Both the position numbers and the translations under genes were made by a program. Positions 7,762 to 48,990 of a DNA stretch of 48,990 bases are shown piece by piece. Source of the stretch: Planctomycetaceae bacterium (lineage in GTDB: Bacteria; Planctomycetota; Planctomycetia; Planctomycetales; Planctomycetaceae); assembly GCA_947476295.1 (NCBI GenBank), contig CANJQC010000029.1, positions 1-48,990 of the forward strand. The letters run 5' to 3'. Numbering within the stretch: the first letter of the stretch is position 1; every line of letters starts with the position of its first letter. Under the pieces are notes generated by a model that saw nothing but the letters and a program-made list of their open reading frames with translations, was not told where the DNA came from and did not search any database.

Positions 7762-8413
7762 ACTTTAGCTTCGAATAATGCAGAGACTCTGTCGGCGACA
7801 ATGCAGCTTTGATACCGTTCCTGGCGATGTATCTGCGAAAATACAGAAACTGTTCTTCTGATCGCACGAGGTGATCAAATCCGTCCTGTTGCCAGAATCG
7901 GCCGCGCTGATCGAGCTTGCGGTTGATTTCATGAGCAGTGAAGTGCTTCCATGATTTGCACTGCTCCAGCATAGCCGACTCAACAGGAAATGCGGCCAGC
8001 AAGTGAACGTGGTTCGGCATGACAATAAAATCGGTGAGTTCGTATCGATCCTGGTCGAAATGCAGGAGACTCTTGCTGACAATTTCAGCGATCAGCCGTT
8101 GTCGCAGCACACAGGCTCCATGACCTTCATCGAGTTCGTCGTGCCAGCGTTGGGAGAAGTGCTGATAGAATTCTGTCTGAGCTTCAATATCGAGTAACTG
8201 AAGTTGCTGACGCCAGTTTTGGGAGATGGGATTGATCGCGTGCAAACGAAGCCATTGGCGACGCTCCTGCCTCCATTTCTCCAGCACCAACGCCGGGATC
8301 GAATCGTCTGTCCGCCATGTCACGAAACAAACCACACCGGCCTGGACCCAATGCGGCAGTCGTCTCTCGATGACGGTGTATTCAGTATTTCGATCAAAGA
8401 AATGCAGATCCAT
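7760..8413 (-). CDS. REP-associated tyrosine transposase (RAYT, Y1_Tnp / IS200-like fold)
   Basis: 217 residues. The start at 8413 is chosen for its strong GGAGGTGG 6 nt upstream. HUH-type single-strand endonuclease: the metal-binding pair is in MPNHVHLL (132-139, His135 and His137), preceded by LTDFI as usual. The C-terminal helix has RFWQQDGFDHLVRSEEQ and then YFRRYIARNGIKA, where Tyr191 or Tyr195 would be the nucleophile. RAYTs act on palindromic REP elements with a GTAG foot. Here the gene is framed exactly by two copies of such an element, both starting GTAGCC. It appears intact and lies between gyrA and gyrB. It carries no accessory orfB or IS ends, so it is a domesticated-type RAYT rather than a full IS200. 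Confidence 0.9.
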   Translation of the reverse strand: MDLHFFDRNTEYTVIERRLPHWVQAGVVCFVTWRTDDSIPALVLEKWRQERRQWLRLHAINPISQNWRQQLQLLDIEAQTEFYQHFSQRWHDELDEGHGACVLRQRLIAEIVSKSLLHFDQDRYELTDFIVMPNHVHLLAAFPVESAMLEQCKSWKHFTAHEINRKLDQRGRFWQQDGFDHLVRSEEQFLYFRRYIARNGIKAALSPTESLHYSKLK

Positions 8414-17409: not shown

Positions 17410-19707
17410 TCACGGTCCGCTGGGGTCCGTTTGTCTCAGGATTCTGACCGCCTCAATAGCCCCGAGGTCTGGTTTCAGAGTGGTGTTGGCGATGCCAGAG
17501 ACAACTTTCGTGATGTTGTGATCGACTTTGTCAGCGATGTCCCAGGTTTGTCCATCCGCACGAGTCATGTAGACGGAAAGTGTATGATGACCGCTGCCCG
17601 GCCGTTCTCCAATAATGTGAAGAATTGTGAACGTACCATTGCGGCCACCGAAGAGTTGCTCTCCGATCCGATACCCAGCACGAACCCGCCCGGAATTGAC
17701 CACCAAATTTTCCGGGGACAGGGTGAACTCTGTTCCGGCCAGCTCAGCTCGCACCCGACGAATCAGGCTGAGTAACTGGTCGCTGTCCATCACCGCCAGC
17801 GCATTCAGGCCGTCGGAGATGACAATCTGCGTATTGAACTGTTCGCTTCGGTCCCGCCGTAACCTGGCGATCACAGTCGCAGATTCGTCGGACAGGTGCT
17901 CACCCGATACAGGATGAAGGATGTAATCATTTCGGTCCGCAGATCGAGTTCGCAATTTTGTAACATCAGGGACGGTCGCGATAAAGGCATCGTCAAGCTG
18001 CATCCAGATTGAAATTTTCGCGTCGTCGTAGATGTGCTGAATGTGTTTCGCCAGCGATGGCTGAAGGGTCGCAAGAGTTGCGCCGAACCCTTCGGCAATG
18101 AAGACGCCGCGTGAACGTACGTCCGCGATCTGAGTGGCCGCTTCCGATCGGATTTCCGTGTCTGGCCGAGCATCGTTTTTCCGCCGAAGGTATTGCTGAT
18201 ATACCCACGACGGATCGCCGAAGTGCTCCGTGGGCTGTCCTTGTGCATCGATCACGCCGAGCTGCTGGAAAAACTGCCACATGCGATCGTTGACTTTGAA
18301 ACCAAATTTTTCACGGATGTGAACGTGATCCTGAAAGCCAGTTGTCAGATATCCAAGCATCGGATCGATGCGAGTCGGCAGAGCCATCAGGTAGCCGGGG
18401 TTGGCCGGCATGATTTGATCGATGCACCATCCAAGATCATCGAGACTAACGTCCATGTGCAGCGTGGAGCAGACGTCCAGACCAATCATCAGTCCGTGCA
18501 GCTTGCCCATCACGATGTCTTCCAGACAGCATCGCACCAGTTGATCGCGGGAGCGAAAGACTTCCGGGCCGATGAAGCCGGCAACGTCGTTGAGAATGAC
18601 CCACGGATTCTCATTTTTCCCACGACGCGCGAGAGTTGCCGCGACTGTCTGAGTGAGCGCTCTGGCAAAGCCGTACTTGCGCGATTCGTGAACGACCATA
18701 TCGACGCCATGACCGTGGCCATTGGTAAAGTCAGCTCCCTGACCTGTTTCAAAGTACAGGCTGAATCGCCCGTGTCGTGCGGCTGCTGCATGCTGCACCA
18801 TCTTATCGACTGAAATATCAAACGTGGTATTTGCGGCATCATTTCCTGCGATGCTTTGAAACCAAAGTTCCGTGAGGCCGGGGTGCGCATTTTCCACTTC
18901 GGCCTGAACATCAATATGCGCGAGCACACAGTGAGGCAGGACGTTCTCGATCCCGAATGTGACCAGCACGTCCTGCAGGGCTGCTTCCACTGCTGCCACG
19001 GATTCCGGAGTGCTCGATACCGGATTGGTCCCAAGCAGCACGTCGCCGACAGCGTACGCAAAAGCATCGAAGACCTGCCAACGGATATCATCGACATTGT
19101 CGGTTGGTGAGTTAGGCTGAACCCGGGCTCCCATATAGCCGCGAGCGCCAATGTTAGATTCCGGCAGCGGGTTGAAAACCTTTGCGCCAACCTGAATGAG
19201 TTCAGCGTTGCTCATGAGTCGGACGACACACGCAATGACGTCGCTGGAAAGTCCGTCTCGGATGGCATGAATCTCGGACTCGCTCCGTTCCAGCAGAAAC
19301 GTTTTCAGCGACCCAAGCGTCAGGTCGCCCATCTGCTGCTGAATTTCGTGGTTAAGGGACGATGTGATCAGTTGGAACAGTTCGTCACGAAAAGGCGGAT
19401 GCAGATCGATTTCGCTCACCCGCGTGGAAGCGAGTAAACCGCGAGCCTGCCGACGAGCATCGTCATCGACGGCCGCCACGCCGATGATTGCATCGCCCTC
19501 CTTGAATTCATTCGCGGCCCCTAACAGCTGTTTGTACAGCGCAGCATCCCACTTGCCATGCACGCGCTGGATGTAATCAAACACACCTTCGCCCGGCACA
19601 GCAACTGCCACTGGCATCGCCGCACCGACTGCTGTTGACGACATCGTAAACTTCCCCAGCGTCCCGCCAGCGAGCCCCAATGCAAGAAATCGTCTGCGAT
19701 GCAGCAT
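17410..19707 (-). CDS. Fused EutB-EutC ethanolamine ammonia-lyase with Tat-type leader
   Basis: Adenosylcobalamin-dependent deamination of ethanolamine to acetaldehyde and ammonia. 765 residues; ATG at 19707 with GGGAGA 8 nt upstream. Residues 1-30 are a twin-arginine-like leader (HRRRFLALGLAGGTLG, then AVGAA). Residues about 45-500 are the EutB barrel: Arg195 and Gln197 in GARVQPN, Asn228 in GTNPV, Glu320 in LYFETGQGA, and MIGLDVCSTLH near 407. These match E. coli Arg160, Gln162, Asn193 and Glu287. Residues about 505-765 are EutC, with TRSADRNDYILHP, IVISDGLNA and the B12-site block IIGERPGSGHHTLS. Normal EutB and EutC are separate, cytoplasmic chains. No other eut or microcompartment gene is near. 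Confidence 0.88.
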   Translation of the reverse strand: MLHRRRFLALGLAGGTLGKFTMSSTAVGAAMPVAVAVPGEGVFDYIQRVHGKWDAALYKQLLGAANEFKEGDAIIGVAAVDDDARRQARGLLASTRVSEIDLHPPFRDELFQLITSSLNHEIQQQMGDLTLGSLKTFLLERSESEIHAIRDGLSSDVIACVVRLMSNAELIQVGAKVFNPLPESNIGARGYMGARVQPNSPTDNVDDIRWQVFDAFAYAVGDVLLGTNPVSSTPESVAAVEAALQDVLVTFGIENVLPHCVLAHIDVQAEVENAHPGLTELWFQSIAGNDAANTTFDISVDKMVQHAAAARHGRFSLYFETGQGADFTNGHGHGVDMVVHESRKYGFARALTQTVAATLARRGKNENPWVILNDVAGFIGPEVFRSRDQLVRCCLEDIVMGKLHGLMIGLDVCSTLHMDVSLDDLGWCIDQIMPANPGYLMALPTRIDPMLGYLTTGFQDHVHIREKFGFKVNDRMWQFFQQLGVIDAQGQPTEHFGDPSWVYQQYLRRKNDARPDTEIRSEAATQIADVRSRGVFIAEGFGATLATLQPSLAKHIQHIYDDAKISIWMQLDDAFIATVPDVTKLRTRSADRNDYILHPVSGEHLSDESATVIARLRRDRSEQFNTQIVISDGLNALAVMDSDQLLSLIRRVRAELAGTEFTLSPENLVVNSGRVRAGYRIGEQLFGGRNGTFTILHIIGERPGSGHHTLSVYMTRADGQTWDIADKVDHNITKVVSGIANTTLKPDLGAIEAVRILRQTDPSGP

Positions 19708-19848
19708 GGATGAAATCTCCCAGTGTCAGCTGTCTCTGTCGATGAACCGCTGCTTTATTATGACAGTGAAAAACGGATTTATCCACCTACAAGCAATCAT
19801 AAATCGACAGAGAGTTCCTCCCCATCCTGCTCGCCGTAGGTACTGCAC

Positions 19849-19884
19849 GGCGAGCGGTGGGTGTCAGCCCATCGGTACAATGCG
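19849..19884. repeat. GGCGAGCGGT..GTCAGCCC family repeat
   Basis: A second copy of the 2925 repeat, sharing GGCGAGCGGTG, TGTCAGCCCA and the downstream ACAATGCG. It marks the exact point where the neighbouring VCBS-type gene fragment stops resembling protein, so it may sit at a deletion or rearrangement junction. Confidence 0.6.
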
Positions 19885-20260
19885 TTTCATTATCTCCATC
19901 GTTATCGACATCCTGCACCAGAATGGGAATCGATGCGTCCTGCCACAGGTCAAATTCGGAATGAAACTCCCAGCGATCGTTGCGACGATCTTGGGGTGCT
20001 TCGGCCCAGCCGTGAGGTCCCACGACGTCGCCGCGACCATCACCGTTGATATCGCCAAAGCCTGCGCCGTGGCTCGCAAGTTGTTCTGGCAATTCGTGGC
20101 GAATCCACTTCGGTGCTTCGCCCGGTTCAATGTCCCACCACGCAGCGAACTTCGTTCCGTTGGGAAGCAAATCTATTGGTCCGTCGCCGTCGATATCAAA
20201 CAAGCGTCCAGTTTCCATTGTCCCTAGAGTTGCCGCAACATGATAGACGTCTCCAGCACT
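19885..20260 (-). pseudogene. VCBS/FG-GAP-type protein fragment
   Basis: Internal fragment of a larger extracellular repeat protein. The calcium-loop repeats are clear: FDIDGDGPIDLL, FGDINGDGRGDVVG and VQDVDNDGDNE, with GWAEAP and W-rich linkers typical of planctomycete FG-GAP proteins. The coding similarity starts immediately after the stop codon of the upstream gene (20261-20263) with SAGDVYHVAATLGT, in the same frame. It ends at a dispersed repeat at 19884. There is no signal peptide, start region or natural C-terminus, so this is a truncated relic and not a gene. An ATG within it would give 143 residues, the last 30 of them repeat-derived. Confidence 0.75.
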
Positions 20261-47848: not shown

Positions 47849-48814
47849 TCACACCAATCCGGTTCGAGCATCCTCGCAAGTTCCGGTGCCGGAGCTATCC
47901 AAATGATGACCATTGTCAGATGAGTCTTTTTGCTCACGCAGCCAGTCCAGATAACGGCTCGAGCATGTGTCGAGATTGCCCTGATTTCCACCGCCACGTA
48001 TGGGCGAGCAGATCTCGTAAATCGCCAGACCATTAAAGCCGCCGTCGCGCAGACCCTGAAAGAAGGCCGGATAATCGATGAACCCTTGCCCGAACGGGAC
48101 AGCACGGACCCAGTCCGGAGAAACAGGTTCGTAGTTGACAAGTTCTGGTCGGTAACGGTGACGCGGCACGCGAATGTAGTCTGCATTCGTGGTGATTACA
48201 GTATGCGGAGCCGCTTTCTTAGCGACATCATACAGGGACTCACCGCGTAAGGCCGGCGACCAGGCATCGAATCCCAATTTGCAGTTGGGTCGATCGATAT
48301 CGGTCAGAAGTTCCAGTAAAGCATCGGTATGCAACGCGATGTCGTGATGATTTTGAATCGCGATTGTGACGCCATGTGATGCGGCTCGATCGCACATTTC
48401 CCGAATTGCCGCGCAACAGCGATCCCACTGAACCTGCAAGCTTTGGCCGTCTGCTTCGTACGCCGTAAAGATCCGCACAATCGACGCACCGATCTGCGCC
48501 GCACAGCGGGCCAGCGATTCGACATAGGCGATCTGAAATTCCACCAGCGGGACCTCACTGCCAATCGAAGATGGCTGCATAAGGTTCGTATAAGCGGCCA
48601 AAACATCGCATCGGACATTGGCGTCGGTGAGCGTCTGGCGCAATGCGGCCATGGACTCCGGTGTCATGTCCAGCGGCGAAAGATGAGGTCGTTTGCCGGC
48701 AATCATCACTGACGGAAAGCCCAGCACTCCCGCATGCCTGATGAAGTCGTGCAGACTCAGCAACGCCTGTCCCCAGAATCCGGCATAGCTGACTGAAAAT
48801 AAACATGGTGTCAT
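47849..48814 (-). CDS. Sugar phosphate isomerase/epimerase-like TIM-barrel protein
   Basis: 321 residues from ATG at 48814 with GGAG 11 nt upstream; the frame stays open to 48856, into the intron tail. AP-endonuclease-2/xylose-isomerase-like barrel: FSVSYAGFWGQALLSLHDFI at the start, VRIFTAYEADGQ, TIAIQNHHDIAL, KLGFDAWSPALRG and FNGLAIYEICSP hold the expected metal-ligand positions. No signal peptide, unlike the copy at 28939, so it works in the cytoplasm, probably on a sugar, cyclitol or keto-glycoside. The 235-bp gap to rpsA (47614-47848) shows no gene. Confidence 0.85.
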   Translation of the reverse strand: MTPCLFSVSYAGFWGQALLSLHDFIRHAGVLGFPSVMIAGKRPHLSPLDMTPESMAALRQTLTDANVRCDVLAAYTNLMQPSSIGSEVPLVEFQIAYVESLARCAAQIGASIVRIFTAYEADGQSLQVQWDRCCAAIREMCDRAASHGVTIAIQNHHDIALHTDALLELLTDIDRPNCKLGFDAWSPALRGESLYDVAKKAAPHTVITTNADYIRVPRHRYRPELVNYEPVSPDWVRAVPFGQGFIDYPAFFQGLRDGGFNGLAIYEICSPIRGGGNQGNLDTCSSRYLDWLREQKDSSDNGHHLDSSGTGTCEDARTGLV

Positions 48815-48857
48815 AGGAATTGTACTCCACGCGGTCATGATTGAGAGAATTGGCATA

Positions 48858-48990
48858 GGGGTAGGGAAGACCGTTTAATCCGGTCTCCCCTCCCTCCAAA
48901 CCGTACGGGCGGTTTTCCCGCATACGGCTTTCCAGTCAGTAGTTGCCTGCGACGGATTGATCGAAACGAAAGTGGGCTTCGCGCAGACTA
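48858..48990 (-). mobile_element. 3' end of a group II intron (domains V and VI), continuing past the right edge
   Basis: Read on the minus strand, 48932-48899 is a domain V: AAGCCGTA (triad AGC), TGCGG, loop GAAAA, CCGC, then CCG and TACGGTTT pairing back with the usual G-U at the triad. It is followed by a domain VI-like stem (GGGGAGACCG, GATTAAA with a candidate branch A, CGGTCTTCCC) ending CTACCCCTAT near 48855-48862. The exact 3' splice site cannot be set. The intron-encoded protein, if any, lies beyond 48990. The intron end is about 40 bp from the start codon of the downstream sugar isomerase gene. Confidence 0.8.

Follow-up and report, generated by a model that had tools for sequence, protein, structure and literature searches.

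A single-chain EutB-EutC ethanolamine ammonia-lyase lineage with a conserved twin-arginine leader in Planctomycetota and on Sinorhizobium symbiotic plasmids

A 48,990-nt contig of a Planctomycetaceae bacterium (GenBank CANJQC010000029.1, hereafter the window) encodes an ethanolamine ammonia-lyase (EAL) in which EutB and EutC are fused in one chain behind a twin-arginine (Tat) leader. This protein belongs to a real, widespread EAL lineage in which the leader is conserved. Judging from sequence, we consider it probable that the fused enzyme is loaded with B12 inside the cell, exported by Tat, and acts outside on ethanolamine or a small amino alcohol; the initial annotation had proposed this for ethanolamine, which it supposed might come from phospholipids. 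The fused chain would fold and take up adenosylcobalamin in the cytoplasm, and the folded enzyme would then cross the cytoplasmic membrane via the Tat pathway, the fusion letting both halves ride on a single leader. On the outer side, the substrate would be converted to acetaldehyde and ammonia, with ammonia as the benefit of the exported enzyme. That the enzyme is exported, that it receives its cofactor first, that it is active outside and that ammonia is the gain are all things that we infer, and they are not equally firm: export alone appears very likely, while ethanolamine activity outside the cytoplasm, taken overall, is likely. Conservation of the leader, retention of the substrate residues and the presence of TatC speak for this reading; the window's own leader is a weak one.

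The gene occupies a single open frame of 765 codons on the minus strand, from an ATG at 19707 to a stop codon ending at 17410 (Table 1). An in-frame stop lies six codons 5' of the ATG, giving a stop-to-stop span of 771 aa. Alternative starts at Met22 or Met31 would remove the leader, the arginines of which are retained in relatives. Both domains, described as complete in the initial annotation, were recovered in this one frame by Pfam, with 453.5 bits for EutB and 97.1 bits (cut-off 25.8) for EutC; the EutC match begins at profile position 32 of 235, leaving positions 1–31 unmatched. Among the NCBIfam models, the EutB subfamily scored 592 bits, above its cut-off of 554, and the EutC equivalog 71.7 bits, far under its cut-off of 230. 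An AlphaFold model of the chain (pLDDT 81.6, pTM 0.83; residues 1–29 under 50) has as its nearest solved structures the large and small subunits of EAL, with TM scores on the target of 0.84–0.86 for EutB and 0.66–0.72 for EutC. No second EutB match was found in the window's genome (G000; 5.99 Mb, 98.97% complete).

Table 1. Positions of the gene and its features in the window
Feature	Coordinates	Strand	Basis
Single-chain EutB-EutC ethanolamine ammonia-lyase with twin-arginine leader, 765 aa	17410..19707	-	frame, Pfam, NCBIfam, model
Leader, residues 1-30: R4-R5-x-F-L, hydrophobic stretch about 7-20, AVGAA at 26-30	19618..19707	-	sequence
EutB domain, residues 58-494, with R195, Q197, N228, E320, D411	18226..19536	-	Pfam
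Stretch with clade-private C393, C394, C428	18424..18531	-	alignment of 37 rows versus other EutBs
EutC domain, residues 556-759, with GERPGSG at 700-706	17431..18042	-	Pfam
GGGAGA, Shine-Dalgarno-like, 8 bases before leader ATG	19716..19721	-	read from sequence

The leader of the window protein reads M1-L-H-R4-R5-R-F-L and continues into a hydrophobic stretch that holds one lysine (K19), so that the RRRF motif, hydrophobic stretch and AVGAA noted initially are indeed present in the frame. By Tat profile models this leader is weak: PF10518 matches it at E 0.31, under the cut-off, and no NCBIfam model, TIGR01409 included, gives a match. Its hydrophobicity (1.17) shares ranks 14–16 from the bottom of 89.

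Whether homologs keep the leader was the main check proposed for the initial reading. From the contig scan and the phylum and class samples described below, we gathered 113 frames with more than 45% identity. Nineteen of these duplicated another frame exactly across 300 residues and were dropped; of the 94 that remained, two (L014 and L109) are cut by a contig end. A twin-arginine leader is present in 90 of the 92 relatives with an intact 5' region, a set that spans Planctomycetota and records titled as gamma-, delta- and alphaproteobacteria. A script requiring RR or KR, any residue and a hydrophobic residue, with a start codon near, found 89 of these; the scoring overlooked the leader of L103 (MLTRRTFLQTATV), which became evident on inspection. 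One of the 90 (L013) carries KR instead of RR. Conversely, none of 14 other EutB frames (12 stand-alone EutB and two of a second fusion type) has a leader. When the 90 N-termini are aligned, columns average 25% identity, and near-invariance is confined to R4, R5 and E40; because rows entered this alignment by bearing the motif, the meaningful count is 90/92. Arginines that are held while the rest of the N-terminus drifts are, at the level of sequence, the pattern of a signal peptide.

The same region bears on the possibility that the enzyme is cytoplasmic and its N-terminus merely resembles a Tat leader. Independent Tat models match about a third of the 90 N-termini (TIGR01409, 33, best E 4.3e-5; PF10518, 32, best E 1.9e-5; E up to 10 in both cases), and some of the N-termini also match other Tat leader models. 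These models thus miss nearly two thirds of the leader-bearing N-termini. TIGR01409, the one model run on the controls, matches none of the 14 control frames. A fixed rule, motif plus hydrophobic stretch within the first 60 residues, is passed by 85 of the 90 leader N-termini and by no control. Among 391 other frames in the gathered loci, 35 pass as well (65 of 430 when EutB-like frames are counted in), which lends the cytoplasmic alternative something; some of those other frames are probably real exported proteins. Two relatives that lack a leader also favor a cytoplasmic enzyme, yet a single change on the tree accounts for both, and the two arginines persist in a region that otherwise drifts. 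On balance, we regard a cytoplasmic location as very improbable.

Those two relatives, L048 and L052, have no leader in any of the three frames upstream. Leaderless homologs had been named at the outset as evidence that would count against export; they do exist, but as one pair on the tree against the 90 of 92 that carry the leader. We built a tree from 94 full-length rows, 90 drawn from the gathered frames and four of rhizobial origin. In it, the pair has an SH-aLRT support of 99 and, on midpoint rooting, falls among leader-bearing alpha- and deltaproteobacterial rows, so that the leader needs one change. Loss in this pair is the simpler reading; it rests on midpoint rooting, and the root is insecure. 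Both rows were flagged for odd letter make-up in this tree, and in a tree of 51 EutB domains the pair sits at an open fork near the base. The 51-domain tree places the 37 leader-type rows in one group (support 100), with a branch 5.0 long between this clade and other EutBs.

Relatives are spread widely. A contig scan yielded 24 loci under Planctomycetota and proteobacterial titles, the latter comprising gammaproteobacteria (L012, L013, L025), deltaproteobacteria (L015, L017) and Rhizobiales (L023). Most loci come from metagenome-assembled genomes, and hence record titles can be wrong. For two loci titled Candidatus Kuenenia (L002, L004), the title is probably wrong: across 300 residues they do not differ from loci of G719 and G595, genomes that a genome search placed in the window's own genus. 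EutB was found in 30 of 392 genomes of a phylum sample; split by identity and frame, these comprise 16 of leader type (the window's own included), 12 with stand-alone EutB and two of the second fusion type. In a class sample searched with a profile from our alignment A1, 199 of 397 genomes gave a match, with 80 rows above 800 bits. Of these, 78 entered the gathered set; the other two, G663 and G684, were left out, their matches beginning as late as model positions 122 and 270. Two further rows (326 and 294 bits) look like short fragments of the leader type. EutB-like matches also occur in six phage-labelled records, including OR850921, OR846652, MT836776, CAKLQH020000029 and CAKLQF020000030, and are probably host DNA.

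Alignment to EutB as printed for the E. coli structure 3abo equates window residues Arg195, Gln197, Asn228 and Glu320 with E. coli Arg160, Gln162, Asn193 and Glu287, and Asp411 with Asp362. We take these five E. coli residues to be the ones that bind ethanolamine. The first four and GERPGSG had been singled out in the initial annotation; across the 37 rows of the leader-type clade, none of the five substrate residues is replaced. This invariance matters for a different account of the protein, namely a Tat-exported cobamide protein that uses another amino alcohol, or simply binds cobamides, in organisms that salvage B12. A mere binder would not need the five residues, and the second fusion type offers a contrast, with alanine in place of Asp362 in both of its members. 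A conserved leader also fits this other job, as does the lack of any eut partner seen nearby. So does the cofactor repertoire of the window's genome, in which neither CobS nor CobA/CobO gave a match over the cut-off but an adenosyltransferase is present, so that cobamides probably come from outside. Weighing these points, we think such a job quite unlikely and retain EAL activity as the preferred reading.

The wider survey of cofactor and transport genes covered 19 genomes (11 of leader type and 8 with stand-alone EutB). All 19 contain TatC, found in the window's genome at E 1.7e-61, and a PduO-type adenosyltransferase (PF01923). CobS and CobA/CobO were each detected in one of the 19, in both cases the leader-type genome G257. 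Given an adenosyltransferase together with the absence of CobS and CobA/CobO, the window's organism probably salvages cobamides and adenosylates them inside.

The initial annotation's statement that no eut partner lies nearby holds for 17 other frames of the window scanned with Pfam, none of which is a eut gene (81 frames of at least 130 aa are listed, many of them spurious). EutA gave no match over its cut-off in the window's genome; of a microcompartment-type eut system, neither EutA in this genome nor eut partners among the 17 scanned frames were seen. Across the 30 EutB genomes, EutA scored above the cut-off in two, both of the second fusion type, with a weak sub-cut-off match in G105. We considered absence of EutA as a marker of export and rejected it: EutA stays under the cut-off in all 12 stand-alone EutB genomes as well, which makes its absence uninformative on location.

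Leader ends bear on whether the protein is released. Some leaders end in an AxA-like manner by eye (ARA, AWA, SHA, AVGAA; uncounted), as expected least if the leader stayed uncleaved and the Tat-dependent enzyme were anchored on the outer face of the cytoplasmic membrane. In others, such as the NRRDFVQAMLGAPFALTVSLSQARR group, inspection shows no clear end of this kind, which would suit such anchoring. We judge this variant of the export reading unlikely, if less so than the alternatives above.

The leader-type clade also has private cysteines. Cysteine occupies positions 394 and 428 in 37 of 37 leader-type rows and position 393 in 36 of 37, and is found at these positions in none of the 12 stand-alone EutBs and neither member of the second fusion type. 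Stand-alone EutBs instead have cysteines aligned with residues 400, 410 and 437 (8, 11 and 11 of 12, respectively), where all 37 leader-type rows have Met, Leu and Pro. In the model, C393/C394 and C428 lie midway in helices 387–403 and 422–435, which flank strand 408–412; these helices, being on either side of one strand, are probably neighbors in the barrel. A disulfide between C393/C394 and C428 is possible on this model and, if true, would fit a location outside the cytoplasm.

Close relatives sit on symbiotic plasmids of Sinorhizobium meliloti. In tblastn, 149 plasmid records showed some match, Sinorhizobium plasmids doing so at 53–55% identity. Strain ml56 of S. meliloti carries the gene on pSymA as U8C44_07295 (782 aa), annotated as 'ethanolamine ammonia-lyase subunit EutB', with a leader region reading ...DGLTRRDLLLMAGATATLASYSHAAKSA. 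All six rhizobial plasmid loci examined (L147–L152) have a twin-arginine stretch; the frame of one, from Ensifer canadensis (L149), ends early, at 7851, and this copy may be broken. A DNA search returned 25 plasmid records, 16 of them at 99% or more, including Rm41, SM11, GR4 and BL225C; Rm1021 is not named among the 25. Because the gene is carried on plasmids of S. meliloti Rm41, GR4 and SM11, it is open to ordinary genetics. Genes for GH94 and glycoamylase proteins directly precede it in S. meliloti (L148, 477–5713; L147) and in L023 (692–5880); glycoamylase remnants do so in L149, and L150–L152 gave no match. These genes resemble what we take to be parts of cyclic beta-glucan synthase. An S. 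meliloti metH nrdJ strain has been described as having no cobamide-dependent enzymes except methylmalonyl-CoA mutase (PMC6759758), so the gene was either overlooked or is missing in that strain.

Several known systems are close to this one. EutB and EutC of E. coli (3abo) and Listeria (2qez) are alike in both domains, the substrate residues and the fold. The window protein differs in being one chain with a Tat leader, an unmatched EutC start and private cysteines; its EutB part is 30–34% identical to theirs, and, unlike those systems, it has no EutA over the cut-off and no eut gene seen nearby. The second fusion type (L043, G061:C58; L047, G081:C18) likewise has EutB and EutC in one chain, at 28–30% identity, but it lacks the leader, has alanine in place of Asp362, and has EutA in the genome, directly beside the gene in G061. 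From this substitution, it perhaps uses another substrate. Fusion of the large and small subunits has also been published for eutBC1 and eutBC2 of Pelobacter carbinolicus, whose genome lacks eutA; there, fused eutBC lies in a 43-gene cluster with cobalamin genes, and the portion of the account that we consulted mentions no leader, the likeness to the window protein being one of description (PMC3543383). In the literature searched, the initial suggestion that the arrangement is undescribed appears to hold for the exported form and not for fusion alone. No paper joining EAL with twin-arginine was found in the open-licence PMC literature, where absence is weak evidence, nor did the parts consulted of that literature on EAL with periplasm or signal peptide, or on adenosylcobalamin with twin-arginine, yield an exported form. 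As a precedent by analogy for Tat transport of a corrinoid enzyme, there are the respiratory reductive dehalogenases, which Tat delivers to the membrane's outer face; they form a separate enzyme class that has iron-sulphur clusters and relies on Co(I) instead of adenosyl radical chemistry (PMC10624902).

That many planctomycetes and some rhizobia have EAL in one piece behind a conserved export tag suggests that the enzyme is exported folded. To our knowledge, adenosylcobalamin radical enzymes have all been assigned to the cytoplasm, which allows their cofactor to be regenerated. With an EAL outside, one would have to ask how a labile cofactor gets into the enzyme, stays there and is renewed across the membrane; such an enzyme would also point to nitrogen gained from ethanolamine without importing it. 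The chances seem about even for the boldest form of the proposal: that this is the first known adenosylcobalamin radical enzyme lineage outside the cytoplasm, fused, exported folded by Tat, held by a C393/C394–C428 disulfide and working on a single charge of cofactor without reactivation, across Planctomycetota and Sinorhizobium symbiotic plasmids.

For synteny, frames of 43 loci and the window were clustered, and 30 frames were scanned with Pfam. The longest-frame caller missed the EutB frame in five of the 44 loci (L021, L023, L061, L062, L067), and neighbors there are less sure. Two neighbor clusters recur in 11 loci each, with DUF1501 and PSCyt/PSD proteins as their representatives; in L057 and L060, such genes immediately precede the EAL gene in the same orientation. 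Both families are very common in planctomycetes. For this reason, and because no partner is general, we rejected them as functional partners; in the gathered loci, no gene that might handle acetaldehyde, supply the substrate or reactivate the enzyme was seen to recur generally. In the window, no cobalamin riboswitch reached the Rfam gathering score, and promoter and terminator scans were near chance (3 found versus a shuffle mean of 1.5, and 2 versus 2.7). Upstream of the gene, a 143-aa frame with an FG-GAP repeat (19787–20218, minus strand) is perhaps a remnant. At the far end of the window, Rfam matches a group II intron at 48855–48932 on the minus strand (55.8 bits; gathering score 40), just before a xylose isomerase-like TIM-barrel frame (47849–48856).
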